Shown one piece after another: positions 42,267 to 62,357 of a stretch of DNA of 64,000 bases. Each line of letters begins with the position of its first letter. Position 1 is the first letter of the stretch. Below the pieces are notes generated by a model, which ran no database searches, was not told where the DNA came from, and saw only the letters and a list, made by a program, of their open reading frames with translations. Source of the stretch: Alicyclobacillus sp. ALC3 (GTDB taxonomy: Bacteria; Bacillota; Bacilli; Alicyclobacillales; Alicyclobacillaceae); the NCBI RefSeq assembly GCF_028751195.1, contig NZ_CP066784.1, positions 4,340,001-4,404,000 on the forward strand, given 5' to 3'. The position numbers were made by a program, and so were the translations under genes.

Positions 42267-42295
42267 AAAGTCCTTGTGCCGGCTTCGTACAAGTT

Positions 42296-42323: not shown

Positions 42324-42367
42324 TCGACTTGCCGAGAATAGGCACACAGATAGGAGGCTGGGCCTAC

Positions 42368-44451: not shown

Positions 44452-44484
44452 CACGCTTCTTAGACGCGCAGTAATGGACGTAAT

Positions 44485-45066: not shown

Positions 45067-45077
45067 GACCGAACCCC

Positions 45078-45413
45078 CTACCATCCAAAATCAATCAAGG
45101 TGTAAATAATAAAACCAATGGAAAGGACCGCTGAACCCACCGTGAGGCTGATCATCTTCTTGTCTTTGCACTGATGCCGGATAAGGCGATAAATGGAGAA
45201 GGCAACTGTGACCACGGTGGCGAAAATCATGATTCTGCGAAACCAAACGATCGCGGGCATCGTTCCAGACATCAAACTCATGGACCCCATCGAACCGCTA
45301 ATGAGCATAAGAATCACCATATGGATCCAGTGGTGTGACGATGCGAGGAAAGACCAGATCAGAGCACCTACCGAGACGGCCGTTTGCTTGTTCTTATTGA
45401 GTTCATTGTTCAA
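45078..45413 (-). CDS. small membrane protein in marR operon
   Basis: A 111-aa protein with three hydrophobic segments. The second (HWIHMVILMLISGSMGSMSL) is rich in Met with two flanking His; a Cys lies in the loop RHQCKDKK. Its start overlaps the end of the marR-type gene by 11 bases, showing coupled translation. No family recognised; the Met/His content suggests metal or redox contact. Confidence 0.68.
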   Translation of the reverse strand: MNNELNKNKQTAVSVGALIWSFLASSHHWIHMVILMLISGSMGSMSLMSGTMPAIVWFRRIMIFATVVTVAFSIYRLIRHQCKDKKMISLTVGSAVLSIGFIIYTLIDFGW

Positions 45414-45858
45414 GAAGGTTCCTCCTCGTTTCAGCTAGAGCTGACGTAAATTTGTATAAACCTTGCAAGATACTTTTGCGCTCTTCTTCGGAGAGGTGTT
45501 CAAGGGTACTACGGAAAAAAGCAATCGATTGGTTGCGGACCTGTTGCACAGCGCGACGCCCCTGATTTGTCAGAGACACTAGGATTTCCCGCCGGTTGCG
45601 TTCATTGATTTGTCGCTCAACAAGACCCTCTTTGACCAAGCTATCCACCAACCGACTGACGGTACTGCGCTCCAGGTACAATTGTTCTGCTAGATTGTGG
45701 ATGGTCAACGGCATTTTTTCCTCGAGGGTTTGCATGGCAAGCACTTGAGAAAGAGAGAGTTGGTATCCACACGGAGTCTTTGTGGGATTCAAGATGCCGA
45801 ACAAGCGGATAAACTGATGAATTTGCGAACGGATTTCGAGAATTTCGTCCTCGTTCAC
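45403..45858 (-). CDS. MarR-family transcriptional regulator
   Basis: About 151 aa with the MarR winged helix: MPLTIHNLAEQLYLERSTV, SRLVDSLVKEGLVERQI and NERNRREILVSLTNQGR (the wing with the D/N-x-R-x-x-R pattern). The start is GTG 45858 behind AGGTAGGTG; the frame extends upstream but through promoter sequence. First gene of a three-gene unit with a membrane protein and a methyltransferase. A perfect palindrome over its -10 suggests self-repression. Confidence 0.87.
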   Translation of the reverse strand: MNEDEILEIRSQIHQFIRLFGILNPTKTPCGYQLSLSQVLAMQTLEEKMPLTIHNLAEQLYLERSTVSRLVDSLVKEGLVERQINERNRREILVSLTNQGRRAVQQVRNQSIAFFRSTLEHLSEEERKSILQGLYKFTSALAETRRNLLEQ

Positions 45859-45890
45859 GGCAAAACACCTACCTGTGTATGTAGCATTAG

Positions 45891-45903
45891 ATGTATTATA
45901 CAT
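45891..45903 (-). promoter_or_regulatory. marR operator/promoter palindrome
   Basis: ATGTATTATACAT is a perfect 13-base palindrome. Its minus-strand reading contains TATAAT, the -10 of the marR-type gene, whose GTG start lies 33 bases downstream. Typical placement for MarR autoregulation. Confidence 0.6.
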
Positions 45904-46047
45904 TAATATATGGGGATTGAAAAGTTGCATGGACAATCATCCTCGAACTTGCCATCTATCTTCTCTCGACAGGCAGTTCATGTTCGTCACGTTGAGGGGA
46001 AATGGTATACTATGCTTACCTAGTTTCATTGAAAGTGTGGGGTAAAA

Positions 46048-46458
46048 GTGTTAACCGATGACCAAGTATCTGTATTGCGAACCGCGCTTGGACCGCTCGA
46101 AATCCGAGTGATGGAGATCATTTGGGAAAATGGAGATGTAACGGTACAACAGGTTTTGGATGAACTGAACCAAGAGCATCGAGATTACGCTTATACAACA
46201 ATTATGACCGTGATGAGTCGTTTGGCCAATAAAGGTCTTTTGAATCGTGAAACTTCGGGTCGATTTTATACCTATAAACCTGTCTTTGAGCCTGATGAAC
46301 TCATGACACATTTTTCGTCCAAGGCTGTAGAGGAGATCCTTAAAGACTTCGGTGAACTCGCCATCGCGCAGTTCGTGGATACGATCGGGAATAATCCGGA
46401 TTATTTGAAAAAGCTCAAACTGTTCATCGATCGACTTGACCAAGGTACGGAACCATGA
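46048..46458 (+). CDS. BlaI/CopY-type transcriptional repressor
   Basis: A 136-aa BlaI/MecI/CopY protein: LGPLEIRVMEIIWENGDV at the N terminus, YAYTTIMTVMSRLANKGLL as recognition helix, then a dimerising helical tail. It lacks the Cys-x-Cys pair of copper-sensing CopY, so it is more like BlaI, which is inactivated by proteolysis. GTG start with a GTGGGG stretch upstream; promoter -10 TATACT at 46007-46012. The next gene encodes an M56 peptidase, the usual sensor partner. Confidence 0.88.
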   Translation: MLTDDQVSVLRTALGPLEIRVMEIIWENGDVTVQQVLDELNQEHRDYAYTTIMTVMSRLANKGLLNRETSGRFYTYKPVFEPDELMTHFSSKAVEEILKDFGELAIAQFVDTIGNNPDYLKKLKLFIDRLDQGTEP

Positions 46459-47279
46459 GCGCCAATTCGTTTGAAAAAGTCCTTTCAGTTTTTGTTTTTG
46501 CACTCACTTCCTTCTTATGTATTCTCTATGCCTCGGCCGATACGATGTTCGGGCAAGGGCTAAACGTCGTGTGTAAAAGCCTCACGTTGAGTCATGGACG
46601 CTTTTGGGGACTGAGTGTTCTCTTGCTCATGGGTACCAGTACCCTGATGTTGTTCCTCGGAAGAATGGCTTATATCGCTCGACATACGAGACGGTGGATC
46701 GCGCCTATAAAAGAAAATGTTATCGAAGTCGAGCACACGGTAATTCGGGAGTTTCAGGCTCGACGGATAATTGACGTAGACGTGATTCATTCCGACCAGA
46801 TTCTAGCGTGCTCCTATGGCCTGGTAAAACCAAGAATTTTGATCACGATGGGACAGATTTCACTTCTTAGTAGAGATGAACTTTTGGCCATTCTTGAGCA
46901 CGAATATCGTCATTGTCGAAACAGGGATCCCTTACGAGTGCTTTTCGCCTACAGTGTTCGTTGGGCTTTATTTTTCATTCCAATGATCAAAGTCTGGACG
47001 GAGCGTTTTTTCCTTGAAAAAGAGATTGAGGCAGACCAAGCCGCAATTACAAATGTAGGCCTTCGACCCCTAGCTGTCAGTTTGTATAAGTCACTGACCA
47101 TCGTCCAAAATGATGGCTCGTTACCGTTGGCTTTAAGCCTTAATGAACTCGTGAGCCATCGTATCGATTTTCTCACGCAAGGTACAATACACAGGAACCC
47201 AATTTCGGTTTCTACGCTGGTTGTCTCGCTGGTCAGTATCATGATCCTGGTTGTGGTCCTGATATTGTGTTTCATGTAA
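46455..47279 (+). CDS. M56 (BlaR1-like) membrane metallopeptidase
   Basis: A 274-aa membrane zinc peptidase. Active-site helix LLAILEHEYRHCRNRDPLR carries His-Glu-x-x-His; a third ligand is expected in FFLEKEIEADQAAI. Hydrophobic segments lie at both ends. There is no penicillin-binding sensor domain, so the signal differs from beta-lactam. ATG overlaps the stop of the BlaI-type gene by four bases, so the two form a signalling pair in which the peptidase likely relieves repression. Target unknown; perhaps the genes downstream. Confidence 0.88.
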   Translation: MSANSFEKVLSVFVFALTSFLCILYASADTMFGQGLNVVCKSLTLSHGRFWGLSVLLLMGTSTLMLFLGRMAYIARHTRRWIAPIKENVIEVEHTVIREFQARRIIDVDVIHSDQILACSYGLVKPRILITMGQISLLSRDELLAILEHEYRHCRNRDPLRVLFAYSVRWALFFIPMIKVWTERFFLEKEIEADQAAITNVGLRPLAVSLYKSLTIVQNDGSLPLALSLNELVSHRIDFLTQGTIHRNPISVSTLVVSLVSIMILVVVLILCFM

Positions 47280-47309
47280 CGTTTGCAAATGATTTCTAGA
47301 CACGCCTTG

Positions 47310-47361
47310 ACACAAGGAAGCCTTATTACTACACTTTCGTAGTAATAAGGCTTCCTTGTGT
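47310..47361. terminator. perfect 23-bp inverted repeat with 6-base loop
   Basis: The arms 47310-47332 and 47339-47361 are exact complements around the loop ACTTTC. Core arm sequence: AAGGAAGCCTTATTACTAC. It lies 31 bases after the M56 gene. Arm length well above usual terminators; the run after the stem is not T-rich. It ends the M56 transcript or serves as an operator for the next operon. Confidence 0.7.
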
Positions 47362-47445
47362 TCTACAGCCAGATTCAATAGCTGCTAGCCATAAGGCGAA
47401 CGGCACCATAGATGATGGTTCCCGCCGAAAGTGGAGGAAACGTTC

Positions 47446-48618
47446 ATGAATATGCAACCTATCATTGATCCAACCGTCGTTCATGTATTCTATCGGGAGT
47501 TGTTATGGGTAACGGCTGTAATTGTTGGGATCGGTCTCTTTCTTGGATTCTCTTGGTGGTTTTATCAGTTTCTCAGTGATAACAACTTAAAGGCGTATCG
47601 CTTCACGAATTTTGGTGATTTTCTGCGGTTTATCCGGGTCCGAGCCTTTCTGCCAGGTAAAACGGTTCATTCAGGGCGACGCGTGTTATGGTGGGGACTT
47701 GGAATCTTATGGTTGGTGGATGGTATTTTGCAGGCTCAGCCCGCGATGCCAAACGATGGATTTGTTGAGGACGTATTAGCTCCTGCTATTCAAGGTCAGC
47801 CCATTTGGTACGTCAGGGTACTCGCCGTGAACATTCAATTCTGGACAGATCATCCGATCGGGTCCGATGTCGTAGCCGTGATCCTTCAAATCGGCATTGG
47901 ACTCCTTCTCCTTGTGGGTAAAGAACGGACAGCGGGCAAGATAGGCATATGGTTATCGATCGCCTGGGGATTGGCCATTTGGGTCTTCGGCGAAGGCATG
48001 GGGGGAATCCTGACTGGCAGCACTACTTCGCTCACCGGTGCCCCTGGTTCGGCACTGTTTTACGTCATAGGTGCGATTTTGCTTTTATTGCCGGACAAGT
48101 GGTGGTTGGAAGGGAATGCGATCCGAACATCTCGCTGGATTTTCTCCACCTTCTGGTTAATGGCAGGCATGGTACAGGCATGGCCCAGTGCAGGATTCTG
48201 GACTTCAAAAGGATTGTCGAGGGTCTTCAAGGGAGCGGCAAGTATGCCTCAACCCTCCTGGATGTCCGCTCCCATTGATGCCATGGCGAGACTGGCGGCA
48301 AGTCATCCGGTCTTTTGGAATGGATGGTTTGTGTTGTTTATGTTCCTTCTAGGAATCGGATTTGCAGTTGGAGGTCCAACGCGCCCAATTTTAACCTTGT
48401 CATTGGTTTGGCTTGCCTTTACATGGTGGATGGGACAAGACTTCGGCGTCATGGGCGGGGTAGGAACCGACCCCAATTCCTCTCCCGTACTGGCGCTACT
48501 CATCATCACGTTGTGGAAATTGGGTCGCGTCCGTTCCGCGTCAAAACGTAGTCAGAATACCTCATTGCATGATATTTCCATCCTCAGTCATGGACCGACG
48601 GAGTCTGGACAAGGCTAA
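47446..48618 (+). CDS. unknown polytopic membrane protein upstream of multicopper oxidase
   Basis: A 390-aa protein with some eight hydrophobic segments, very rich in Trp and Gly. One outside loop repeats the theme GILQAQPAMPNDGF (residue ~86) and GMVQAWPSAGFW (residue ~243), so the two halves look like an internal duplication. No CxxC, no heme motif. GTGGAGGAA precedes ATG 47446. It is followed 47 bases later by a Tat-type multicopper oxidase in the same direction. I do not recognise the family. Confidence 0.75.
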   Translation: MNMQPIIDPTVVHVFYRELLWVTAVIVGIGLFLGFSWWFYQFLSDNNLKAYRFTNFGDFLRFIRVRAFLPGKTVHSGRRVLWWGLGILWLVDGILQAQPAMPNDGFVEDVLAPAIQGQPIWYVRVLAVNIQFWTDHPIGSDVVAVILQIGIGLLLLVGKERTAGKIGIWLSIAWGLAIWVFGEGMGGILTGSTTSLTGAPGSALFYVIGAILLLLPDKWWLEGNAIRTSRWIFSTFWLMAGMVQAWPSAGFWTSKGLSRVFKGAASMPQPSWMSAPIDAMARLAASHPVFWNGWFVLFMFLLGIGFAVGGPTRPILTLSLVWLAFTWWMGQDFGVMGGVGTDPNSSPVLALLIITLWKLGRVRSASKRSQNTSLHDISILSHGPTESGQG

Positions 48619-48665
48619 GCGGGTCATCAGAGCGACAAAATGCATACACCCGAAGAGGATCCGAG

Positions 48666-50150
48666 GTGAACAAGGTGTCCAAATTCATGACACGACGTGA
48701 GTTTTTAACTGCACTGGCCGGTCTTGCACTGATCGGGATTGGAGGGTACCCATTTATCCGTCGGTGGTTGTTAGCTTCTACGGAGGAGCTTTCTTTACCG
48801 GCCAAACCTACTGTACCGTGGAACGGGCGAACGAGGAGTTTCCAGTTTGACATACGGTCTGGAGAGGTGAATTTGGGGAACGGAACAAGGTTTACCGGCT
48901 ATTTAATTAACCAACAGTTTCCTGGACCGGAGATTCACGTCACCGAAGGAGATCGTGTCCAAGTCACGGTGAAGAATGGACTGGACAAACCCCTTACCGT
49001 TCATTGGCATGGTGTGAATGTTCCGAACCCGATGGATGGCGTCCCGGGTATTACACAGAATCCAATCTTACCCGGCCAACAATTTACGTATGACTTTGTG
49101 GCTTCGCCGTCGGGGACTCGTTGGTATCATTCTCACGTCTACGAGCTGGATGAAATCCCGAACGGGTTATTTGGCCCCCTCATCATCCACTCTACCTCCA
49201 CTGAACCTTATACGTCGGATCGAGAAGAAACCCTTATCTTCTCCACGTGGGGCTATTCGACGACACCGGGCAATCTCCCTACATACGGAATGATGGGGGG
49301 TATGGGAAGTGGAATGGGGATGGGGAGCGGAATGATGAAGTCGGCGAGTCCCAATCTAACTTATCTGGTGAATGGAAAGGTACCTTCCGCCCTGAACGGT
49401 ATTCCCATTCCGCCCGGGGCCAAGTTGCGATTGAGGTTGATTAACGCCAGTGCCACGGAGTCCTTTTTGCTCCAAGCGGATCATACGAATCTGCTCATTA
49501 CCCATACCGATGGAAATCCCTTGTTAAAGCCCCAAGCCGTGAGCGAACTCTACATGGCACCGGCCGAACGTTATGATGTCATTCTTACTCCGAACCAGTC
49601 GGGGACGTGGTATTTGCGTTCGACGTTAGTTGGACAAGACTCGATTCGTATTCCGTTTATCACGCAAGGACAGGTTAGTCCATCTCTCGTTGCGAGTGTT
49701 CCAGCTTGGTCCTACCTGAATTTGGCTGCAGCCAATGGAGTTCTGCCACCGGCCGACCATATATTTCAACTGACCCTCAGCGGAGGAATGATGGGAAGCA
49801 GCCAATGGACCATCAACGGAGCTTCCTATCCAAATTCTGTGCCCCTGCGCGTGAGGAAGGGTGAACGAATCCGGATTGAAATGTTCAACATGAGCATGAT
49901 GGAACATCCGATGCACTTGCATGGCCACACCTTCCAGGTGACCAGTTTTAATGGGCGTATTCTGGGATCCCCGCTTTTAAAAGACACCGTAGATGTTTTG
50001 CCCATGCAACGATGTACGATTGACTTTATGGCGAACAATCCAGGAAACTGGTTCTTCCATTGCCATAACTTGCAACACATGATGGGTGGACTCGCGACGG
50101 TCGTAGAATATCAGGATTATCCCCTGCCTCATGTCGATAAGTGGATGTAG
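48666..50150 (+). CDS. Tat-exported three-domain multicopper oxidase, CotA/laccase-like
   Basis: A 494-aa protein. The N terminus has a twin-arginine motif (TRREFLTALAGLALIG), so it is exported folded with its copper. Copper blocks: TVHWHGVNVPNPMDG, RWYHSHVYE, HPMHLHGHTF and FFHCHNLQHMMGGL. The residue ten positions after the type 1 Cys is Leu, not Met, which in laccases goes with a higher redox potential. A Met/Gly loop (GMGSGMGMGSGMMK) sits between domains, as in Cu(I) oxidases. GTG start 48666 with GAAGAGG upstream. Confidence 0.88.
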   Translation: MNKVSKFMTRREFLTALAGLALIGIGGYPFIRRWLLASTEELSLPAKPTVPWNGRTRSFQFDIRSGEVNLGNGTRFTGYLINQQFPGPEIHVTEGDRVQVTVKNGLDKPLTVHWHGVNVPNPMDGVPGITQNPILPGQQFTYDFVASPSGTRWYHSHVYELDEIPNGLFGPLIIHSTSTEPYTSDREETLIFSTWGYSTTPGNLPTYGMMGGMGSGMGMGSGMMKSASPNLTYLVNGKVPSALNGIPIPPGAKLRLRLINASATESFLLQADHTNLLITHTDGNPLLKPQAVSELYMAPAERYDVILTPNQSGTWYLRSTLVGQDSIRIPFITQGQVSPSLVASVPAWSYLNLAAANGVLPPADHIFQLTLSGGMMGSSQWTINGASYPNSVPLRVRKGERIRIEMFNMSMMEHPMHLHGHTFQVTSFNGRILGSPLLKDTVDVLPMQRCTIDFMANNPGNWFFHCHNLQHMMGGLATVVEYQDYPLPHVDKWM

Positions 50151-50335
50151 TTGTGAACTACGAAAGTAGTGAAAGGATAGTACCCTTGACGAAAGGCCCA
50201 GAGACGGCCCATACACGATAAGTATCAAGATAATCAGACGATAAGGTAGCGCAAGCGCTCACTTACATCACGGACTGTTGAGGTTCACTTGTGTTCAGGT
50301 TGGTGGTATCAGAATAAAGACGGAGGACGTGACGT

Positions 50336-51124
50336 ATGCATCCGATTTTATTTCATGTTGGAAGTTTTCCGGTCCGAGCCTATGGCCTAGTCATTTTACT
50401 GGCCATCTTTCTTGCGACGCAGGTGAGCATCACTCTTGTAAGATTGACAGTGAAAGAATATGAACAACACATCGTTCCTTTGGTTTACTCGGTCGTCATT
50501 GGCGCACTCATTGGGGCACGCGTGTGGCAAGTTTTTTTCTTTACACCGACTTACTATTTTGCCCATCCTGGTGAAATGCTCGCGATTTGGAATGGCGGTT
50601 TGTCGATACAGGGCGGAATTGTTGGCGGGCTGATTGTCGGGATTTGGTATTGCAGACGCCACCATCTGCCGTTCTGGCACGTGGCCGACCTTCTTGCACC
50701 TTCCATTATCTTAGGTCAAGGGATTGGACGAATCGCTTGTTTGCTCAATGGGGATGCATTCGGCGCGCCAACCGGAGGAAATTTCGGTCTTGTGTATCCA
50801 CCAGGGACATTGGCCTATGAAACTTATGGGTCTCAACCATTGTGGCCAGCTGAAGTGTTCGAAGGCCAAATGGACATCGTGATTTTTGCGATTCTGTTTG
50901 CGTTGTTACGTAAGAAGCTGCCACGAGGAATGATGTTCTTACTCTACAATATCCTATACAGCGCGGGTCGGTTTGGACTGGAGTTTTTACGAGGAGACAG
51001 TCCGAGATTTTTGTTGGGTTGGACAGCCGCGCAGTGGACGAGCATGGTTGTCGTAGCATTGGCTCTGATCATGATAATGGTTCTCAGGGGCCAGGACAGA
51101 CCAAGAAGAGTTCCAGTGAATTAA
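50336..51124 (+). CDS. Lgt-like diacylglyceryl transferase homologue, copy 2
   Basis: A 262-aa, seven-helix protein about three quarters identical to copy 1 at 26733. Blocks: LIGARVWQVFF, GGLSIQGGIVGG, GIGRIACLLNGDAFG and GRFGLEFLRGDSP. The active-site His of canonical Lgt (G-G-x-x-x-His-G-G) is Gln here too, while both key Arg blocks are kept. ATG 50336 has CGGAGG upstream. It is followed by a paralogue of the same secreted three-Cys protein as copy 1, so the unit was duplicated as a cassette. Whether it still modifies prolipoproteins is open. Confidence 0.84.
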   Translation: MHPILFHVGSFPVRAYGLVILLAIFLATQVSITLVRLTVKEYEQHIVPLVYSVVIGALIGARVWQVFFFTPTYYFAHPGEMLAIWNGGLSIQGGIVGGLIVGIWYCRRHHLPFWHVADLLAPSIILGQGIGRIACLLNGDAFGAPTGGNFGLVYPPGTLAYETYGSQPLWPAEVFEGQMDIVIFAILFALLRKKLPRGMMFLLYNILYSAGRFGLEFLRGDSPRFLLGWTAAQWTSMVVVALALIMIMVLRGQDRPRRVPVN

Positions 51125-51176
51125 TTTCGGGATGGCTGAAATTGAAATATATCGCGTCAGTGGATGGGGGAGAGGC

Positions 51177-51587
51177 ATGAACCGTAGATGGGGACTCCTA
51201 GCGGCCGGAATTCTGATGATATCCGTCATGGGAATTGGTGTTGTGTCCCTCGGTGGTCACACGATGGTTCCGAAGGAACAGGATCAAATTATACCGGTAT
51301 CTGCAATGAATTGGCAGAATAATGGCGCGAATGGCCAGCGAATTGTAAAAATTATCGGAGGACATCTTGTGGCCCCGACCCAAGGAGTGGTCTTGACAGA
51401 TACCCACTGCAATCCAGATGCAAAGGGACTAAGCCATTGTCATAACGTGATTCGACTTAAGAATCATCAAACGATCAAGGTCATTGATACTCACAATATA
51501 ATGCATTATGGATGCCTTCGAATTGACGAACCAGTATCTGTGACGCCACTCGGGGCATCTTGGGCACGTGTTACGATAAAAATGTAA
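51177..51587 (+). CDS. small secreted three-Cys protein, copy 2
   Basis: A 136-aa protein with a signal or anchor helix (residues 6-26) lacking a lipobox Cys. The mature part shares with copy 1 (27605) the blocks TDTHCNPDAKGLSHCHN, VIDTHNIMHYGCLRIDE and SWARVTIKM. Three Cys and several His are conserved between the copies, while much of the rest differs, which marks them as functionally important. GGGGGAGAGG precedes the ATG, 52 bases after the lgt-like stop. Family not recognised. Confidence 0.74.
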   Translation: MNRRWGLLAAGILMISVMGIGVVSLGGHTMVPKEQDQIIPVSAMNWQNNGANGQRIVKIIGGHLVAPTQGVVLTDTHCNPDAKGLSHCHNVIRLKNHQTIKVIDTHNIMHYGCLRIDEPVSVTPLGASWARVTIKM

Positions 51588-51689
51588 TCAGAACGAACCA
51601 TGATTGACTCTCCATTTGTTAATATCGCAAACGCCACGACACCCGAAATGCGCACTTTGTCATGGCGCCTCCGCACATTTTATACAAGA

Positions 51690-51711
51690 AGCCCTGCATG
51701 CCAGCAGGGCT
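51690..51711. terminator. bidirectional terminator hairpin
   Basis: Eight-bp perfect stem AGCCCTGC / GCAGGGCT with a six-base loop, between convergent genes. AT-rich sequence lies on both sides. Confidence 0.65.
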
Positions 51712-51713
51712 GA

Positions 51714-53867
51714 TTATTCATGGGCTTTGACACGCAAAAGTCGAATTCCATTCAAGGTAACCAAGACGGACGCTCCCATATCCGCCAGGATTGCCAACCA
51801 CAGTGTTAGCCAGCCTGGAAATACCAACAACACGGCAATGACCTTAACAACCAGCGAAAAACCGATGTTCTGCCGGATGATTCGTAATGCGGCTCGACTT
51901 AACTGGATCGTGAAAGGGAGTTTCGTCAAGTCATCCGCCATGAGTGTAATGTCGGCCGTTTCCATGGCTGTGTCCGTACCCGCTCCACCCATCGCAATTC
52001 CCACTGTAGCTGTGGCAAGGGCCGGCGCATCGTTAATTCCGTCTCCAACCATGGCTACCTTTTCATCCTGGTCAAGGATTTTCTGAACTGTCTCCACCTT
52101 GTCCTGTGGAAGTAATTCAGCGTGGAATTCATCGATCCGAGACATTTCAGCCACCGCTCTTGCTGTGGCGGCATTATCTCCGGTCAACATGATCGTTCGC
52201 TTAATCCCAACTTTTTTGAGTTGCGAAATGACCGTCGGGATGACGTCACGAATCTCGTCGGCTACTGCGATGATTCCCAAAATCCTGTGCCTGGTACCGA
52301 TGATCATGGCCGTCTTGCCTTCATTTTGAAGAGAGGACACACGCTGCGATACGTCGTCCAATCGAAGTTCCAATTCATCGAATAGCTTCATGTTGCCAAT
52401 GTAGTAGGTCTCACTTTCAATGACACCCCGAACGCCTCGTCCAGTGAGCGCTGTGACGTCCTCCGCTGCTTGAATCCGAATGAATTGCTTTTCACCCGCT
52501 TGAACAATGGCTTTGGCCAGCGGATGTTCGGACCTTATTTCCAGATTGCTGGCTATCTGAAGCAAGTTCGTTTTAGTGATTCCATCAAAGGGAATGACAT
52601 CCGTAACGATTGGACGACCCTTTGTGAGGGTTCCGGTTTTATCAAACGCTATAGCCTTGAGAGAACCCGCTTGTTCCAGGTAGATTCCGCCTTTAATCAG
52701 AACCCCGTTCCGGGCCGCACTACTGATGGCACTGACAATGGCCACCGGAGTGGAGACCACGAGCGCACATGGGCAAGAGACCACAAGAAGGGCAAGTCCT
52801 CGGTAAATCCACGGTCCCCAGGGGTATCCCATGACCAGCGGCGGAAGGAAGACAATGAATACGGCCAACGTCAAGACAATGGGGGTGTAGATGGCCGCAA
52901 AACGATCCACGAACGCTTGTGAAGGCGCACGTTTCGTTTGCGCTTCTTCGACCAAATGAATGATTTTTGCGATGGTCGTATCTTCTACACGCTTGGTGAC
53001 TTCAATTTCCAGGGAGCCATTGGTATTGAGCGTCCCGGCAAATACTTCGGCTCCGGGTCCCTTATCGGCGGGTACAGATTCCCCGGTGATGGCCGCCTCG
53101 TTGATCGCCGATTCACCCTTTATGATTAGGCCGTCCATAGCAATCTTCTCACCGGGGCGAATAATCAAGGTATCTCCAATTTCCACTTCATCGACGGGAA
53201 CTTCCATCTCGACAGGTAAAGCAAATTCTCCCACGGGCCGCCGTATCCTGGCCACCTTCGGTGCAATATCCATCAAATCTCGGATGGATTTACGAGCCTT
53301 TTCCATACTCCAGGCTTCCAGAAGTTCTGAGACGGAGTAAAGAAAGGCAACGGTGGCTCCTTCTTCCCATTTTCCAATCGCCATCGCCCCGATGATGGCC
53401 GTGGTCATCAACACACTCATATTGAAATCGAGCTTGGGAAGAGCGTACCAAGCTTTGCGAGCATTTCCCCATCCGCCACTGACGATGGCTATCAGGTAGA
53501 GGGGAAGGAACACGCTCTCTGGAGCATGAAGATGTTGAGACAGAAAGGCAACGAGAAGCACTACGCCGGAAATAATCGTGCGAATCAATTCCCAGTCTAC
53601 ATGCCGCTCACTGCGACCTTGCTGTGCTTGTGTTGCACCTTCCGGTAAAATCCGGTAATTCTCTTTCTTAGCCTCCTGAAGAACCTGTTCAATCGTTACT
53701 TCACCTTCAATTGTAATTTTACCAGCAGTGGGATTGAGAACCGCCCTGGCCACGCCAGGAAGAGCCGCTACATTCTTCTCGAACTTGGCGGCGCAGTCCA
53801 GTCAGGTGATTCCTTCCACTCGGAACACCGTCTTTTTCAGTCTTGTCGTAACTTCCGTAGCAGTCAC
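51714..53867 (-). CDS. cadA: CadA-like heavy-metal P1B-type ATPase with in-frame TGA at the HMA CxxC
   Basis: A Cd/Zn/Pb-type exporter. Conserved parts: LLVVSCPCALVVSTPVAI with the membrane [15 protein letters not shown] with the phosphorylated Asp, SEHPLAKAI and [16 protein letters not shown]. The natural start is GTG 53867, whose GTGA overlaps the stop of the cadC-like gene, with GGGAGGG upstream. Codons 1-21 code the first strand of an HMA domain (VFRVEGIT), codon 22 is TGA (53802-53804), and the frame continues LDCAAKFEKNVAALPGV. In relatives the motif is G-x-x-Cys-x-x-Cys-Ala, so TGA stands exactly at the first Cys. Reading through gives 717 codons. Without read-through only a short peptide results, or a pump lacking most of the HMA domain if translation restarts near GTG 53753. 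Nonsense mutation, sequence error or selenocysteine are all possible. Confidence 0.8.
53764..53792 (-). other. possible SECIS-like hairpin downstream of the TGA
   Basis: Within the mRNA, starting nine bases after the TGA: an outer 5-bp stem GCCGC/GCGGC and an inner 4-bp stem GUUC/GAAU with the loop GAGAA, separated by a small mismatched region. Distance and size are within the range of bacterial SECIS elements, but short GC stems are common by chance, so this is weak evidence. Confidence 0.25.
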
Positions 53868-54259
53868 TTGGTATCCCTCCCTTCCACAAATGACATACTG
53901 TCTAATGTTTCCCGGATAAAGCCTTTGATATGGGGGTTTGCCAGCCGGTAATAAACCAACTTCCCATTCTTTCGGTATTTGGCAAGCCCCATATGGTGTA
54001 AGAGCCGTAGATGGTACGATGCTGTGGCTTTACTGCTCCCAATCACAGCAGCCACATCACACACACAAAGTTCCGCTTCACTGAGCGCATAGACAATCTT
54101 GGCTCGTGTATCATCGGCCAAGGCTTTGAATATGAAGACAATGTTGCTCACCTGATCCAGGTGTGGCTTGATACGATTAACCACCTCGGTATTTATACAA
54201 TCCACTTGACAAACGGGGACGTCGTGTTCGAATCGTTCTGAAGTAGGTACTTTTTTCAA
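53864..54259 (-). CDS. cadC: CadC/SmtB-type ArsR-family metal repressor
   Basis: About 131 aa. Winged helix with the alpha-3 metal motif ELCVCDVA (two Cys, as Cys58/Cys60 in CadC) and an N-terminal Cys pair (VCQVDC) that completes the Cd/Pb site in CadC. Recognition helix: SSKATASYHLRLLHHMGLA. The best start is TTG 54259 with GAGGTG upstream; a TTG at 54280 would lie inside the operator. The stop overlaps the ATPase start (GTGA), so the pair is co-translated. It represses the operon until Cd, Pb or Zn binds. Confidence 0.88.
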   Translation of the reverse strand: MKKVPTSERFEHDVPVCQVDCINTEVVNRIKPHLDQVSNIVFIFKALADDTRAKIVYALSEAELCVCDVAAVIGSSKATASYHLRLLHHMGLAKYRKNGKLVYYRLANPHIKGFIRETLDSMSFVEGRDTK

Positions 54260-54276
54260 ATGGCACACCTCATCAT

Positions 54277-54292
54277 TCAAATATTCACTTGA
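54277..54292 (-). promoter_or_regulatory. ArsR/CadC-type operator of cadC-cadA
   Basis: TCAAATATTCACTTGA is a dyad (TCAA / TTGA around eight bases) of the ArsR/CadC class. On the minus strand a -10-like TATAAC lies just upstream at 54294-54299, so the site overlaps the expected transcription start of cadC. Confidence 0.6.
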
Positions 54293-54299
54293 TCGTTAT

Positions 54300-54686
54300 A
54301 CCATCATCATATACGTAGGATGTCTTTTCTGCAATAGCCTTGCGATTCGGAAATGGATTGAGGAGGATCCGAGTGGTAAGTCAGACCACAGTGTTTTTTG
54401 AAATGTGCATTAGATGTAGAGATCGCCACCGTCATACGTGGACTATGTGCGGCAGTTTTATAACGGAAGGGGAGGCGGCTGGACGTTTATAATTCCAATC
54501 CGCTGAACCAAAACGACATTTACAGGAGGCAGTAGCCACAAAACCTGCTATGCAACCTTGATTGACTCACGAACCTCGGCTTGATTAAGATGCTTGAGAG
54601 GTCGTGATTGGTACGGGTTCCACCTGCTAATTCAACGATAGCAGCAAGAGCTTGTTCTAAAAGTCGCCCCCTTCTTACAACAAGAA
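54300..54686. other. gene-free region
   Basis: About 390 bases between the cadC promoter and the end of the ynfA-type gene. No coding frame, repeat or strong hairpin recognised. Confidence 0.4.
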
Positions 54687-55007
54687 CTACCTTTTTAAGA
54701 GCATAACGAATACGCCTACCAGACAAATTGCCGCACCTATCCATTCACTCAAGTCAGGGAACCGCTTATCAATGAACCGGCCCCAGAGTACAGCCATTGT
54801 TATGAAAATCCCACCATAGGCGGCGTACGTCTTGCCAAACGAAAATTCTTGGCGAGTGGCAAGTACACCATACAAAATCATGATAACTGCACCGACAATT
54901 CCGACCCAAAGTGGCTTCCCATTTTTTAGCCATTGCCAAATAAGATACCCTCCGCCAATCTCGGCTAGACCTGCCAAAATAAACAAAAATATCGCTCTGA
55001 TTATCAT
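54687..55007 (-). CDS. YnfA/UPF0060-family small membrane protein
   Basis: A 106-aa protein with four membrane helices. The sequence [20 protein letters not shown] in helix 1-2 and [16 protein letters not shown] in helix 3 are the signatures of the UPF0060 (YnfA) family, relatives of small multidrug exporters. ATG 55007 has CGGAG upstream. It follows the MATE gene by 20 bases as last gene of the zinc operon. Some relatives confer metal or drug tolerance; role here unknown. Confidence 0.85.
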
Positions 55008-55027
55008 TTTGTATCTCCGATCCTTAC

Positions 55028-56374
55028 CTACGTCAATACACGAATCCAGTTCATCTTGTTCCTGTACCATGCAAACAACAATGCCCTAAGTGCATTGTCA
55101 ACAGCAATACTTGCCCATACGGCAGGAAGCCCCAATCCCAACTTCCAAGCGAATACGTACACCCCAAGTGTCCTCACAATCCATATTCCAATCGTCGTGA
55201 CGATCATCGGGTACTTACTGTTCCCACCTGCCTGAATGGCCGCTGTATCAACTAAGACGGCTGCTAAAAATGGTTGCGATACGATATCAATCGCTAGGAT
55301 GATGGTCAATAAATGGATAACTCGTTGATTATGCGTAAAAAGCAAACCAAACCAAGGGCTCGTTGCACATAAAATTGCTGTTACGGCCGTCATGAACACT
55401 GCCGATTGGATATAACTTGCCCTCCGATATGCAAGCGCATCAGACTCGTTTCCACTACCTATTGCCTGTCCAATCGTCGTTGTGGCAGCCGTGGCAAACC
55501 CGCCGCCAATTGTATATGCGAAAGTGGTGACCGTCCCCGCAATATTGTGTGTGGCATATACATCAACACCCATTCGTACGATCAGCCCAAAATAAATGAC
55601 TTGACCTAGCCGCATAGAGAGTCGCTCAATCGCTGCGGGAATGGCAAATTTAATCATGCTGAAGACTAAGGTTTTACGGAACACAACATCCTTTCGGGTA
55701 AGCGCCAATGTTTCTACTTGACGGGACTTGATCCACAGCCGGACAGATGCATACACCCGAGCCAGAATCATCGCCCAGCCCGCACCGGCAATGCCCCATC
55801 CCGGAATCGGTCCAACCCCGAAGATAAGTACGTAGTCCAGGATGACATGCACTACATTCATCTCTAACCCTACACGAAGCGGTGTTTTAGTGTCGCCGAT
55901 TGCTCGGAACGATGCCGACTGGGCGGTGAACAGTGCGATGAGCGGAGAAAGACCCAAGACTGTTCGGAAGTAAGGGAAAGCTGTCCGTTGAAGTTGTCCG
56001 TGTGCCCCCATGATGTGCAGTAATGGGGTAGCCAGGACGACGGAAATCACGCCTAATACGACTCCAATTGCAACAGCTATCACGAGTCCGTGCCAGACAG
56101 CTGATCGGCCACGTTCATTGTCTTTGGCCCCGATTGCCCGAGACAGGAATACGGACAAAGCGGCGGATATGGCAATGAACACGCCGATGAACGTCATGCT
56201 GTAAACGTTTGTTACACCAACCGCATCAATCGCAACCAGGCCTAATTTGGCTATGAAAAATGTGTCCACGACGCCGAGTAGGTTTTGCAAATACGCTTCT
56301 CCGATAGCCGGCCAGGCAATGGAGAACACTCGTTTGCTGGCAACAGATAAATTCAAGACCACATTCAACCCCAT
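55028..56374 (-). CDS. MATE-family efflux transporter
   Basis: About 448 aa with twelve membrane helices in two homologous halves. Family signs: [20 protein letters not shown] in helix 1, the [20 protein letters not shown] block, and [18 protein letters not shown] in the second half. MATE proteins export drugs or organic cations using Na+ or H+ gradients. The start is not certain: ATG 56374 lies in the SD-like GGAG stretch, and TTG 56368 is better spaced from it. It follows the zinc-ribbon gene, 61 bases on. Confidence 0.87.
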
Positions 56375-56435
56375 CTCCAAATGCTGTCTAAATATCCCGA
56401 ATGACACGGGAAATACTCCGAAAGGGTTTCGAGTT

Positions 56436-56795
56436 TTAGAGTTTCTGACCACAGGCAGGGCAAAATGATGCATTGGTCGGTACGTCCGCTCCACAATTTG
56501 AACATTGGACTGGCTTTGGCTTCAGGTTTGTTCCACACTGGGAACAAAAGTTACTGGAAACTTCGTTTGCCCACCCACACGCTGGACATTTTGTAACCGC
56601 TACAGAGCGTTGAGGGTTTTGTGCTCCTTCACGGTATGGCTCGCCCCGGTGACGATCATGATGATGGTCTTCATGGTGACCATGATGCTCATGAGAATGT
56701 TCCTCATGATGTCCTCCGTGGTGTCCTCCATGATGCCCGCCATGGTGATTTCCGTGATGACCTCCGCCAAACAATTCTCTAAAAAAGTCCGACAT
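56436..56795 (-). CDS. His-rich protein with two zinc ribbons
   Basis: A 119-aa soluble protein. Residues 10-52 are almost pure His/Gly/Glu with GHHG repeats, a strong metal-binding tract like those of nickel and zinc buffers. Then come two zinc ribbons: CPACGWANEVSSNFCSQCG and CSNCGADVPTNASFCPACG. GGGGGGAG precedes the ATG, 15 bases after the CDF gene. It likely stores or passes Zn (or Ni/Co) to the exporter; inference from composition and position. Confidence 0.75.
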   Translation of the reverse strand: MSDFFRELFGGGHHGNHHGGHHGGHHGGHHEEHSHEHHGHHEDHHHDRHRGEPYREGAQNPQRSVAVTKCPACGWANEVSSNFCSQCGTNLKPKPVQCSNCGADVPTNASFCPACGQKL

Positions 56796-56810
56796 TCTGG
56801 CTCTCCCCCC

Positions 56811-57773
56811 TTAGTGGTAATGTGCCATTTCCATCGTGGCACAGAGTTCTGAATTATCATGTGGATGCTGTATGTCTTCCATCTGCACCGTGACATGCCC
56901 AATCCCCAGGTGAACCATACGATGCTCTAAGTTCTGTAAAATACACTGACTGTCCCGAATGGACATCTCTCCGTCTAACACGACGTGACAGGACAATGCG
57001 TTTTTCCCACTTGTGATACTCCATACGTGAACGTCATGCACATCCCGTACACCCGAAACAGCTTTTATTTCATGAATGACCTTCGATAAGTCGATTCCCT
57101 TCGGAGTGCCTTCCATCAGAACTCCGACCGTTTGCTGCACGATCCGCCAAGCGCCTGATGCAATCAGCAAAGCAATGAGGACACTCAAGATTGGGTCGAC
57201 CACATACCATCCTGTGGCCATGATGATGACCCCACCTACAATGACCCCGGCCGAAGCTGCTGCGTCCCCAAGCATGTGCAGAACGGCACTTTTCACGTTG
57301 ATGTCTTCTTCCTTGCGCATACCAAAACCAAGATAAAGATTCATCAACAAACCGATACCTGCACTGATGAACATCCATGTCGGCGTGACCTGCTCAGGAC
57401 GCTGAAACCGTCCATACGCTTCCCACAAAATCCAGATGGTGATGAGAATCAGGGTGATCCCATTGATGAGCGCCGCCAAAATCCCTGCCCTGTGGTAACC
57501 GTATGTCATCTTTTGGTTTGAGGGTTTTTCAGCTTGTTTTATCGCAAACCAGGAAAGTGCAATGGCTGCGATATCTGTAAGCACATGGCCAGCGTCGGCC
57601 AATAGGGCCAGGCTGTGTGACAGCAGGCCACCAATTATCTCGGCCATCAAAATCACCAACGTTAGGAAAAACGCTGCTCTCATTTTTTCGGCGGGTGCGT
57701 GACTGTGAAACACATCCCTGTGATCGTGATCGTGATCATGGCCTTGGTCCTGAATCTCATTACCTCTACTCAT
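56811..57773 (-). CDS. CDF-family Zn/Cd/Co exporter (CzcD-like)
   Basis: A 320-aa cation diffusion facilitator. A His/Asp N terminus (GHDHDHDHRDVFHSH) is followed by six helices with the metal sites HSLALLADAGHVLTDIAAI (helix 2) and SAVLHMLGDAAASAGVIVGG (helix 5), each with the H-x3-D or D-x3-D type layout of Zn exporters. The C-terminal cytoplasmic domain has DVHDVHVWSITSGKN. It exchanges cytoplasmic Zn for protons. ATG 57773 overlaps the stop of the arsR-type gene by eight bases, with GGAGAGAG upstream. Confidence 0.92.
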   Translation of the reverse strand: MSRGNEIQDQGHDHDHDHRDVFHSHAPAEKMRAAFFLTLVILMAEIIGGLLSHSLALLADAGHVLTDIAAIALSWFAIKQAEKPSNQKMTYGYHRAGILAALINGITLILITIWILWEAYGRFQRPEQVTPTWMFISAGIGLLMNLYLGFGMRKEEDINVKSAVLHMLGDAAASAGVIVGGVIIMATGWYVVDPILSVLIALLIASGAWRIVQQTVGVLMEGTPKGIDLSKVIHEIKAVSGVRDVHDVHVWSITSGKNALSCHVVLDGEMSIRDSQCILQNLEHRMVHLGIGHVTVQMEDIQHPHDNSELCATMEMAHYH

Positions 57774-58158
57774 AGACACTCTCTCCATCACTTTCTACAT
57801 GTGTAATATGATCGATTCCCATTTGCAACAAGCCAACAATATGGGCGTCGTCACATGTGTAATACACCATATTGCCATCTCGCCTGTTTTTCACAATGCG
57901 TAATGTCCGCAAGTACCGTAACTGATGGGATACAGCCGATTGTGTCATACCCAGGACTTCTGCCAAATCACAGACACACAGTTCTCGCCGAGTCAGATTG
58001 TGCAGAATGCGAATTCGTGTGGGGTCTGCCAGTGCCTTAAATGACTCGGACAAACTTTGCACGGTCGCAAGACTAAGCTGCTTTGGTAAACAGTCTGCCA
58101 CAGCCTCCGCATGGACAAGTTGACCATCGCAACAATCGTGTTGTAAATTGACTTCCAC
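57766..58158 (-). CDS. ArsR-family metal repressor of the CDF operon
   Basis: About 130 aa. The motif RRELCVCDLAEVLGMTQSAV holds the alpha-3 Cys pair, and SHQLRYLRTLRIV is the recognition helix; His and Asp near the C terminus (CDDAHIVGLLQMGIDH) match the alpha-5 site of zinc sensors such as CzrA, so it may have both sites. The N-terminal His/Cys cluster (HDCCDGQ) resembles CadC/CmtR relatives. GTG 58158 has AAAGGTGG upstream. First gene of the operon with CDF, zinc ribbon, MATE and ynfA-type genes. Confidence 0.88.
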   Translation of the reverse strand: MEVNLQHDCCDGQLVHAEAVADCLPKQLSLATVQSLSESFKALADPTRIRILHNLTRRELCVCDLAEVLGMTQSAVSHQLRYLRTLRIVKNRRDGNMVYYTCDDAHIVGLLQMGIDHITHVESDGESVYE

Positions 58159-58175
58159 AAGGAATACCACCTTTA

Positions 58176-58197
58176 TGAACATATACTCATATATTCA
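58176..58197 (-). promoter_or_regulatory. ArsR/CzrA-type operator of the CDF operon
   Basis: A 22-base dyad: TGAACATAT, a four-base centre ACTC, then ATATATTCA. It matches the TGAA-N-TTCA layout of zinc-sensing ArsR proteins and lies 18 bases ahead of the gene start, where promoter and start point are expected. Confidence 0.68.
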
Positions 58198-58752
58198 TCA
58201 TACCAACGGACATCGAAATGTAAACATGACCCTAAGACTCACTTTCGAGGCCACGGGGGTGCCGAAGGAGAGTGAGACAAGTAGAAAATCTCGTCATGGT
58301 GTTGTAGGAATTGCTCGTAGTGACGGTCTCGATTCTGGTCGTAGAAATCCATGAACTTTGGACTCGAACAAAAGCTGTATCAAGTATACTATGGCTTGGT
58401 TTAGCCGTCATTTCAATTCCCACTCGTGTCCATTCTTAGATGAAACGACAAATTGGCGCTACCATCAGCAGTATGGCTTTAATAGTGGATAGATCGCGTC
58501 TCGTTTGTGGTTATATGGACTGAACTGCAGTTGTCGCAGTGACATTGACGACGTGGTTCGGCTGGTGGTGGGCCGATTCCATAGGTGCCTTAGTACTTTC
58601 TTGAATTTGTTGTTCGGACAGCGAACCAAGCCCTTAAGGAGGCCAGAGGTTAGACGATTGACTGAATTCGCAAGTCGCTTCAATCAAATGCTGTATGCAT
58701 TTGTATGCAAATGAATGCTCGACTGGTATACTTAGTTTGGGAGGTGATCCCC
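58198..58752. other. gene-free region between divergent operons
   Basis: About 550 bases with no coding frame I can support. The right end (58690-58720) contains repeated ATGCATTTG/ATGCAAATG-like words, which could be a regulatory site for the following small gene. Confidence 0.4.
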
Positions 58753-58995
58753 ATGCCAGAGACATTTCGCAGGGGGAAAATTGAGGATTTCATCCGGCGG
58801 TTGCAGGTTCGAAAGGATATTTTGAAGAAGCAGTTGGAGCAGCAGGAATTTCAAGACCAACAGCAATACATCAAGGGACAGATCTATGCTGTGGATACCA
58901 TCCTTCAAGAATTGGAGGCGGAATTTCGCACCAGTGGTCCATATGGGCGTACGATGAGAGGTTGCCGTATGCGGGAAATGAAGGCGGACCCGTAA
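58753..58995 (+). CDS. small coiled-coil protein, 80 aa
   Basis: Soluble, helical, rich in Gln and charged residues (FIRRLQVRKDILKKQLEQQE, then QIYAVDTILQELEAEF). One Cys near the C terminus. GGGAGGTGATC precedes the ATG. Probably a short coiled coil; no family recognised. Same direction as the following SHOCT gene. Confidence 0.62.
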   Translation: MPETFRRGKIEDFIRRLQVRKDILKKQLEQQEFQDQQQYIKGQIYAVDTILQELEAEFRTSGPYGRTMRGCRMREMKADP

Positions 58996-59073
58996 ATCGG
59001 GGTCATGTACGTGTACATGTTCCATTCGGTTCTGTGATAAATTGACTTCCAGTTAAGGAAAGGGTGACTGAAC

Positions 59074-59310
59074 ATGATGATGTTTCCCATGGCCTTCGGC
59101 TTCATGTGGATGATCATCCCGATTCTCTTGTTTACTCTTGGGGTTGCAGTGTTGTTATGGGTTGGAGTTCGAGTGTTTCGCCGCGTTTTTACCGATCACT
59201 TCAGTAATTCGGAAAGAACGGCCGTTCGCATTTTGCAGGAGCGATACGCCAGAGGTGAAATTGACGAAGAGGAGTACCACTCGCGGATGAAACACCTGAA
59301 AGAAAACTGA
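59074..59310 (+). CDS. SHOCT-domain membrane protein
   Basis: A 78-aa protein with a Met/Phe-rich N terminus, one or two membrane helices (residues 6-34) and a SHOCT tail (LQERYARGEIDEEEYHSRMK). AAGGAAAGG precedes the ATG. Third SHOCT protein of the window, here ahead of an ArsR/P-ATPase pair. Role unknown. Confidence 0.75.
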   Translation: MMMFPMAFGFMWMIIPILLFTLGVAVLLWVGVRVFRRVFTDHFSNSERTAVRILQERYARGEIDEEEYHSRMKHLKEN

Positions 59311-59357
59311 ACCGCGGTATTGTTTTGGCTCGATGTCACTCTGGGCCACGAAAGTCC

Positions 59358-59393
59358 TTGACATATCATGTCGTCGCATCAATAATATTTGAT
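59358..59393 (+). promoter_or_regulatory. promoter with ArsR-type operator, arsR/P-ATPase unit
   Basis: -35 TTGACA (59358-59363) and -10 AATAAT (59381-59386), 17 bases apart. The perfect dyad ATCAATAATATTTGAT (59378-59393) covers the -10, the position expected for ArsR repression. The gene starts at 59412. Confidence 0.7.
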
Positions 59394-59411
59394 GACAGGA
59401 GGTACGCAACG

Positions 59412-59771
59412 ATGCTGGGTGATTGCAACAAGAACAATACGTGCACTACGGAAATTCCTCGAATTCACCGTGGTGAAATTCCCCTTCTGGAAGGTGCGCA
59501 AGTACGGGCAGTCACAAGCGTTGCCAAGGCTCTTGCTGATCCAATTCGTGTGCAAATGGTATATTTGCTCTCTAGGAATAAAGACTTTTGTACATGCGAA
59601 TTCGAAGAGATACTGGAACTGTCTCAATCCAAGGTATCCTATCACTTGAAACAACTCTTGGACGCTGGGATTGTAACAAGGGAGATCCATGGTTCCTGGA
59701 GTCACTATCGTCTTGTAGATAACGAATTATTAAATTATCTTGAGATTTGTAATGTGTTGGTAACCGGGTAA
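59412..59771 (+). CDS. ArsR-family metal repressor
   Basis: About 119 aa. Alpha-3 motif NKDFCTCEFEEIL with Cys-x-Cys, as in arsenic and Cd/Pb sensors, and an N-terminal Cys pair (GDCNKNNTCTTE). Recognition region LSQSKVSYHLKQLLDAGIV. AGGAGG precedes ATG 59412. It is followed 72 bases later by a P-type ATPase, so it probably senses the metal that pump exports. Confidence 0.87.
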   Translation: MLGDCNKNNTCTTEIPRIHRGEIPLLEGAQVRAVTSVAKALADPIRVQMVYLLSRNKDFCTCEFEEILELSQSKVSYHLKQLLDAGIVTREIHGSWSHYRLVDNELLNYLEICNVLVTG

Positions 59772-59843
59772 AATTCGAGTTTTGTTTTGCCTATTATATC
59801 AAATTATCTTGTTAAACAAATCAATTTGATAGGAGTGAGCACG

Positions 59844-62357
59844 GTGGAAGCAACACAGATCCTAGAACTGGAGATTGATGGTCTTTGTTGCACCGAATGT
59901 TCTATGAGTATCGAAAAAGCGCTCAAGCGTACACATGGTGTCGTGGAGTATCAATTTCTCTTTGGTGCTGAAAAGGCCGTGGTTCAGTATTTGCCTAGTC
60001 AAACGAAACCGTCGGATATCGAGAAATCGATTAAAAGTTTCGGGCATTCGGTTCGAAATCGTAGCATCCGTAAGCCTGCGTCGGAAACCACTGAAACTAC
60101 TGAAACTACTGAGGCCCCGGCCTCAACGGACCAAGAGTTGTCAAAGGCGGAATTCGTCGTGGACGGATTATGCTGTACAGAATGCGTCACGAGCATTGAG
60201 GGAGTCCTTAAACAATTAGAGGGGATATCACACTACGACCTTTTATTCGGCGCGGAAAAGGCCATTGTTTCGTTTGATTCGTCCAAAACGACCATAAAAG
60301 ATATCGAGCGAGCGATTCGCTGTACGGGATACCGCGTGAAAGAAACAAAGACCATCTCTGAAACTGCATCGGTGGTTTCCGGGTCCTGTTCCGAGGGAAC
60401 TTGTACAACCTGTAGCCCCACACCAATTACACACGCCACGGGAACTTCACAAATTGGCGGCAGATTTGCAAGTGTGGCCAAAGGGTCGTGGAATTCGATC
60501 CGTTTTTGGTTTGTAGCCGTCATCGCTCTCGTGGTGCTTGGGGAAGTTACTGGAGAGACATTCGGGTGGTTAGACCGCCTAATAGAGGTCGTACCAATCT
60601 GGCTACTCCTCGTCGCAACGGCTCTTGGTGGCTATCCGATTTTCCGTCGTGCATTGTTAGGGATTCGGTCGAAGCAGTCCAATGTCGATCAGATGATGAG
60701 CGTTGGTATTCTGGCTGCCATATTGGTTGGCCAATTTGTTTCTGCGCTTCTTTTAGTGTTTTTCATGTCGATTGCGCATTACCTTGAAGGATACACCGTA
60801 AACCAGGTACGGCAAGCCATTCGCCACCTCGTTGAGTTGGCTCCGTCAACGGCTCGGGTCGTTCGCGGGGAAGAAGAAGCCGAGTTACCCGTAGGACAGG
60901 TGAAACCGGGGGAAATTGTGCGGGTTCGTCCCGGAGAACGCATTCCAGTGGACGGTCACGTGGTTGAGGGCAAGGCTGTGGTTAATCAGGCTACTATTAC
61001 AGGTGAATCTTTACCTGTCGAAAAGGGCAGGGGTGACGAGGTGTATGCCGGCACGATTGCCGAACGTGGGTTCCTTGATGTGAAAATGGAGCGCTCGGGC
61101 GAACAAACCATGTTGGGTCAGATTATTCACTTAGTCGAGTATGCAGAGGCCCAGAAAGCGCCGATACAACGCTTCGCTGACAAATTTACCGCTTGGTTTT
61201 TGCCGTCTGTGCTTGCGATTGCACTTCTGACGTACATCCTGAGTGGGCATCTCATGTATGCAGTGGCAGTACTCGTGGCGGCATGTCCGTGTGCGGTAGG
61301 GCTTGCCACTCCGTTGTCAGTCGTATCGAGTGTGGGAAGTGCCGCCCGCCGGGGGTTGCTTATCAAGGGTGGCTTGACATTGGAGACTTTGGCCCGCGTC
61401 GATACGTTCGTGGTTGACAAGACAGGTACACTGACCCTTGGCGAACCTCAGGTCACGGAAGTTGTGCCGGCCTCCGATTTTTTCGACGAAGAGACGATAA
61501 TTCAATTAGCGAGTTCTCTGGAACGGTTTTCTGAGCACCCGCTTGCGGGGGCTATTAGGAAGGTTGCATTCAATAGAGAGATTCCATTAATCGACGCGGA
61601 AGACTTCGCGGGTTTACCGGGGTTGGGTCTTCGCGGTCGGATCAACGGAAAGCAGATGTTTCTAGGAAATCGCAAGTGGCTAACCCAAAACGGGGTTGAG
61701 ATATCATCAGAACGATCGATTGAAGCCGAAGAGTTTGAAAGTGCAGGCCAAACGGTCTTGTTCCTTGCACGGGAGAATTCCTGTATTGGATTGATTGCCG
61801 TGGCAGACCCAGTCCGACCAAATGTGGCACAGGCTCTCAACCAACTCCGTAAAATGGGTATCCGAAAAGTGGTACTGCTATCGGGGGATAATGCTCATGT
61901 CGTAGAAGCAGTTGCGAATGAGTTGGGAATTGACGATGTACATGCAGAATGTTTGCCCACAGACAAAATTCGCTTCGTACAGTCCTTGCAAGCAGAAGGT
62001 CACGTGGTCGCTGTGGTTGGAGATGGCGTCAATGATGCGCCGTCACTTGTTCAAGCGGATGTCGGAATCGCCATGGGGGTGGTGGGTAGTGACATTGCGA
62101 CGGAGGCCGCCGATGTGGTTCTCATGCGGGATGACTGGAGGCAGGTAGTCGATGCTATTGAGATTGGTCGTCGAACGGCACGCACGATTCGTCAGAATAT
62201 TGGTATCGGAATCGGGTGGAACGTGATGACCCTTGGAATGGCATCTATAGGTATTATTGGTCCAGTTCTCTCCGCCGCATCTGAAGCAATGCCAGACGTA
62301 TTCGTCGCACTGAATTCCTCTCGACTCTACCGAAAAAATCCCGCAACGAAGGTTTAA
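59844..62357 (+). CDS. soft-metal P1B-type ATPase with two CCxEC HMA domains
   Basis: An 837-aa pump. Two N-terminal HMA-like domains, each with DGLCCTEC (near residues 12 and 107), are joined by a Thr/Glu repeat linker (TTETTETTEA) and followed by a Cys-rich segment (SGSCSEGTCTTCSP). Core motifs: AACPCAVGLATPLSVVS with the CPC at about residue 480, VDKTGTLTLGEP, SEHPLAGAI and GDGVNDAPSLVQADVG. The CPC plus Cys-Cys-x-x-Cys HMAs suggest Zn/Cd/Pb-type or another soft metal rather than copper, for which GMTCxxC is usual. GTG 59844 has AGGAGTG upstream; the frame reaches further up without a good start. The paired ArsR protein has a Cys-x-Cys site. Confidence 0.9.
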   Translation: MEATQILELEIDGLCCTECSMSIEKALKRTHGVVEYQFLFGAEKAVVQYLPSQTKPSDIEKSIKSFGHSVRNRSIRKPASETTETTETTEAPASTDQELSKAEFVVDGLCCTECVTSIEGVLKQLEGISHYDLLFGAEKAIVSFDSSKTTIKDIERAIRCTGYRVKETKTISETASVVSGSCSEGTCTTCSPTPITHATGTSQIGGRFASVAKGSWNSIRFWFVAVIALVVLGEVTGETFGWLDRLIEVVPIWLLLVATALGGYPIFRRALLGIRSKQSNVDQMMSVGILAAILVGQFVSALLLVFFMSIAHYLEGYTVNQVRQAIRHLVELAPSTARVVRGEEEAELPVGQVKPGEIVRVRPGERIPVDGHVVEGKAVVNQATITGESLPVEKGRGDEVYAGTIAERGFLDVKMERSGEQTMLGQIIHLVEYAEAQKAPIQRFADKFTAWFLPSVLAIALLTYILSGHLMYAVAVLVAACPCAVGLATPLSVVSSVGSAARRGLLIKGGLTLETLARVDTFVVDKTGTLTLGEPQVTEVVPASDFFDEETIIQLASSLERFSEHPLAGAIRKVAFNREIPLIDAEDFAGLPGLGLRGRINGKQMFLGNRKWLTQNGVEISSERSIEAEEFESAGQTVLFLARENSCIGLIAVADPVRPNVAQALNQLRKMGIRKVVLLSGDNAHVVEAVANELGIDDVHAECLPTDKIRFVQSLQAEGHVVAVVGDGVNDAPSLVQADVGIAMGVVGSDIATEAADVVLMRDDWRQVVDAIEIGRRTARTIRQNIGIGIGWNVMTLGMASIGIIGPVLSAASEAMPDVFVALNSSRLYRKNPATKV

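Follow-up and report, generated by a model that had tools for sequence, protein, structure and literature searches.

The window analysed here, a stretch of 64,000 nt from Alicyclobacillus sp. ALC3, contains a gene for a CadA-like metal pump in which an in-frame TGA stands at the first cysteine of the CxxC motif in the HMA metal-binding domain. This raises the question of whether the UGA specifies selenocysteine (Sec), as a sequence-only reading of the locus had suggested, or is a stop. The host genome (5.07 Mb, two contigs) is estimated to be 100% complete, and the features on which the answer depends are collected in Table 1.

Table 1. Features of the pump locus and of the accompanying TGA genes; coordinates are window positions unless marked as genome positions.
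Feature	Position	Strand	Basis
ZntA/CadA-like P1B-type metal ATPase frame, single in-frame TGA at codon 22	51714..53867	-	translation, domain matches
In-frame TGA at first Cys of HMA CxxC (GIT-U-LDC)	53802..53804	-	sequence; TGT in G004a, G011, G007
N-terminal HMA metal-binding domain, TGA inside	53667..53828	-	Pfam PF00403, residues 14-67
GGGAGGG ribosome-binding site of pump gene	53875..53881	-	sequence
ArsR/SmtB-family (ArsR/CadC-like) metal regulator, stop overlaps pump start (GTGA)	53864..54280	-	
Block 98.5% DNA-identical to G004 (another genus) C1:934688-944470, same TGA; resumes 62522-64000	52589..62385	.	
Block 92% identical to second G004 region (857342-873160), which has Cys pump	38629..54432	.	
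Hairpin 9-38 nt past TGA, loose bacterial SECIS shape, non-discriminating	53764..53792	-	folding
Sec-type selD, TGA at Cys17 site	genome C1:4337737-4338846 (C1:4338747)	-	alignment to E. coli SelD 3U0O
MBL-fold (metallo-beta-lactamase-fold) protein, TGA at conserved Cys of GSxCG	genome C1:4333023-4333845 (C1:4333653)	+	alignment to 3TP9

Translation from 53867 to 51714 gives VTATEVTTRLKKTVFRVEGIT*LDCAAKFEKNVAALPGV..., after which 695 more codons are free of stops. The start codon is a GTG lying within the GTGA overlap with the regulator stop, with GGGAGGG upstream. The sequence-only reading had fixed the start by these two signs and had described 21 codons, a TGA at the first Cys of the CxxC and then the whole pump in the same frame without decay; translation and homologue alignment bear this out for the window copy. 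If the TGA is taken as Cys, the Pfam matches comprise HMA, E1-E2 ATPase and HAD hydrolase, and the protein aligns over its length (residues 14-712) with ZntA (PDB 4UMV); leaving out the HMA, it also aligns with 7QBZ, a Cd pump. Both SCPCALV (the CPC motif) and DKTGTLT occur in the translation, which scores 614 bits against TIGR01525 and 528 bits against TIGR01512, each above the cut-off. By these measures, the frame is predicted to encode a full-length Zn/Cd/Pb P1B-ATPase of the ZntA/CadA type, which it resembles in domain order and in its operon with an ArsR regulator and from which it differs in having UGA at the first HMA Cys.

The corresponding codon is TGT in homologues from G004 (G004a; 87% protein identity), G011 and G007 (74%), so that the in-frame UGA falls where homologues have Cys. 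The expectation that relatives encode Cys here thus holds for these three genes, but two further copies carry TGA. One of them belongs to a second regulator-pump pair in the host (G000:C1:4324527-4326670), which is 87.8% identical to the window pump at the DNA level and has the identical TGA (ACT TGA CTG GAT versus ACC TGA CTG GAC, second versus window copy). The other lies in G004, a member of a different genus (C1:934686; 99.4% DNA identity to the window gene). Since two further copies share the TGA, a base-calling error is very unlikely to be its source. In the tree, the three TGA copies form one clade (support 98/99) whose sister is the Cys copy of G004, and the outgroups also encode Cys. 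A family-wide search of 41 genomes revealed no further close members, a GTDB-wide protein scan returned only four relatives, and the relatives in plasmid records are all less than 60% identical. Matches in G037 marked as having one TGA were set aside: these pumps are 36% identical and have Cys at the HMA site, so their TGA sits elsewhere. Two of the three TGA copies are otherwise damaged, the second host copy by a 1-nt frameshift near codon 157 and the G004 copy by an IS110-like insertion (family name by inspection; G004:C1:932900-934690) that breaks it after residue 427.

The divergence between the two host copies makes it possible to follow selection across the TGA. Over HMA codons 12-75, they differ by 20 synonymous and 2 non-synonymous changes (dN/dS 0.022; binomial P about 8e-11), and over codons 12-38, the stretch that holds the TGA and lies ahead of the next ATG, GTG or TTG, by 5 synonymous changes and no non-synonymous one (P about 1e-3). 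The linker after the HMA is less constrained (dN/dS 0.16). Coding constraint is therefore present on either side of the UGA, and the 20 synonymous against 2 amino-acid changes around it indicate that, even after the two copies had split, translation of the HMA domain continued across the TGA. As residues on either side of the TGA are required for the HMA fold, this pattern is the signature of read-through and would not be expected from a dead codon.

A small two-part hairpin downstream of the TGA, to which the sequence-only reading had also pointed, is real but not special as a sign of Sec. It has the form GCCGC CAA GUUC GAGAA GAAU GUA GCGGC (-12.1 kcal/mol), and its apical loop GAGAA, 21 nt from the UGA, falls within the usual geometry of bacterial SECIS elements. 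The structure scores z = -1.2 against shuffles. As 105 of 400 synonymous recodings (26%) fold equally well and the Cys homologue G004a forms the same hairpin, it speaks neither for nor against Sec.

Profile searches of the host genome returned no SelA (two models), SelB or tRNA-Sec, although very unusual machinery might escape such searches. The best tRNA-Sec scores, obtained from 150 of 538 tRNA candidates, lie below the gathering score, with the top eight places occupied by ordinary Ser, Gly, Leu, Tyr and Thr tRNAs; control searches of like extent did find tRNA-Sec. Identical searches recover SelA, SelB and tRNA-Sec in the relatives G004, G011 and G017, where ARAGORN also calls tRNA-SeC with the anticodon tca. 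In these three genomes, selA lies between hemL and hisS. The host keeps the order hemL, hisS, aspS, and its 613-bp hemL-hisS interval holds no remnant of selA. A weak tblastn match to SelA in the island flank (L122:3407-3688) lies within a 393-aa PLP enzyme resembling oxononanoate synthase (named by inspection) and does not represent SelA. Among 48 distinct host tRNAs (from 51 matches) none has the anticodon UCA, and no UCA suppressor tRNA for Cys or Trp is among them. Of the two findings that the sequence-only reading had named as jointly speaking against Sec, namely absence of the machinery and TGC or TGT in all relatives, the former is seen in the host, but the relatives are divided. The search for sel genes itself was mixed as well, since selA, selB and the selC tRNA are missing but selD is present and carries a TGA of its own.

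This selD lies just before the window, 1.3 kb outside, and is the only SelD above the cut-off in the host genome. Its product reads PGAG-U-ACKVGPTDL, with the TGA exactly at catalytic Cys17, where E. coli SelD has GAGCGCK. About 6.3 kb before the window lies the gene for an MBL-fold protein that resembles the beta-lactamase/rhodanese protein 3TP9 and persulfide dioxygenases. The syntenic island of G004 has retained both TGAs, with dN far below dS on either side of each. A blind scan of 134 kb for additional in-frame TGA sites turned up, for the most part, shadow frames antisense to genes and the regular ends of genes; SelD, the MBL-fold gene and the two pump copies alone survived inspection, which brings the Sec-type TGA genes of the host genome to four. 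The words lactamase, hydrolase and persulfide are absent from a 2026 review listing selenoproteins (PMC13188914), and the MBL-fold protein may for this reason represent a selenoprotein family new to that list.

The island that carries these genes has mostly 87-98.5% DNA identity to two stretches of G004, whose AspS protein is only 67% identical to that of the host, and its GC content is about 0.49 as opposed to 0.57 in the host hemL-hisS region. These comparisons make it clear that the island passed laterally between the two genera or reached both from a third source. Since G004 has Sec machinery, the transfer was inferred to have run from the G004 side toward the host. The same 459-codon frame, probably an insertion-sequence transposase, occurs three times around the island (window 34387; genome C1:4305347 and 4308939).

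Taken together, the locus is best explained as part of a stranded selenoprotein cassette, in which Sec-type genes moved laterally into a host that does not decode Sec and in which UGA is now a stop; we assign this reading a probability of about 0.8. The ancestral meaning of the codon was very probably Sec, as suggested by the TGA in three copies, the purifying selection through it, the other TGA genes of the island and the full Sec machinery of related genomes, one of which has a TGA copy. For the present host, the same meaning is very probably wrong, because SelA, SelB and tRNA-Sec are missing. The Sec interpretation of the sequence-only reading would thus apply to the past of this gene and not to its present.

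It is very unlikely that the host still inserts Sec at the UGA by means of machinery that the searches missed. The four Sec-type TGA genes and the otherwise intact window copy would suit such a live selenoprotein, but all three components are absent where identical searches found them in three relatives, no selA stands between hemL and hisS and the second pump copy is frameshifted. Similarly improbable is an ordinary nonsense change from a Cys codon that never specified Sec, which the sequence-only reading had regarded as the simpler alternative. TGT becomes TGA by a single base change, the host lacks Sec machinery and two TGA copies are broken in other ways; however, the TGA is common to copies 12% apart whose HMA has been under strong purifying selection across it, it falls exactly at the CxxC position, the neighbouring SelD and MBL-fold genes have TGA at Cys sites, and one TGA copy resides in a Sec-decoding genome. 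Even two independent origins of the TGA at this one Cys would favour Sec over random nonsense.

Low-level reading of the UGA by a near-cognate tRNA-Trp, or restart downstream, with an HMA-defective pump as the retained product, is highly improbable. A C directly after UGA makes for leaky termination, P1B pumps often function without their N-terminal HMA, and the frame past the TGA is intact. This account is opposed by the lack of a UCA suppressor tRNA, by past selection that included the HMA itself and by codons 23-154, where no in-frame ATG, GTG or TTG is preceded by a Shine-Dalgarno site at the usual spacing. Least probable of all is that the strain inserts Sec or Cys at its UGAs through an undescribed or highly diverged system lacking SelA, SelB and a recognisable tRNA-Sec, so that the selenoprotein island is kept alive.

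Under the stranded-cassette reading, a pump with U-x-x-C in its HMA would have arisen once from the Cys form within the Alicyclobacillus family and would then have been maintained by Sec-decoding hosts of that family, where UGA would be translated as Sec, so that the metal site of the N-terminal HMA would be U-x-x-C. A metal/sulfur island would subsequently have brought the pump, SelD and the MBL-fold gene into a host without SelA, SelB and tRNA-Sec. Here, the ribosome most likely stops at the UGA after making 21 codons. As codons 23-154 offer no start with a Shine-Dalgarno site, any residual pump could come only from rare read-through or weak internal restarts and would lack a working HMA. 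Decay has begun elsewhere, in the frameshifted second copy and the IS110-split G004 copy. The undecayed window copy would fit equally well with a very recent transfer or with continued use.

Sec-type cation ATPases are already known: the cation-transporting E1-E2 ATPase selenoprotein family (TIGR01525, UxxC, e.g., ABB15669.1) is on the 2026 list (PMC13188914). In its probable ancestral form, the present pump is likewise a heavy-metal P-type ATPase with Sec in place of the first Cys of CxxC, but unlike the listed members it is found in a genome without Sec machinery. The change from Cys to Sec in its clade looks independent of the listed family, represented here by the listing of ABB15669.1 only, because the nearest relatives of the TGA pumps encode Cys. 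What is new here is the stranded cassette and the candidate MBL-fold selenoprotein. Lateral transfer of selenoprotein genes is known (PMC1794560), and the part of the literature covered yielded no account of several Sec-type TGA genes forming a cassette in a genome that lacks SelA, SelB and tRNA-Sec. The locus would offer a clean natural case of Sec genes and a Sec-type SelD moving in a metal/sulfur island to a non-decoding host, and of the fate of stranded recoded genes, one copy having a 1-nt frameshift and the other being apparently recent and otherwise intact. It also carries a warning for annotation: a gene can have a genuine selenoprotein past and its in-frame TGA nevertheless be a real stop in the current genome.

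Organisms with an orphan SelD, that is, SelD without SelA and SelB, are defined as lacking selenoprotein genes (PMC5029168, PMC2276186). The host resembles them in having SelD and neither SelA nor SelB, but differs in that its SelD itself has a Sec-type TGA and is accompanied by more TGA genes. In Sec-decoding relatives, selD genes with one in-frame TGA occur at C1:5791868 and C1:836526 in G004, which thus has two, and at C1:1396210 in G011.
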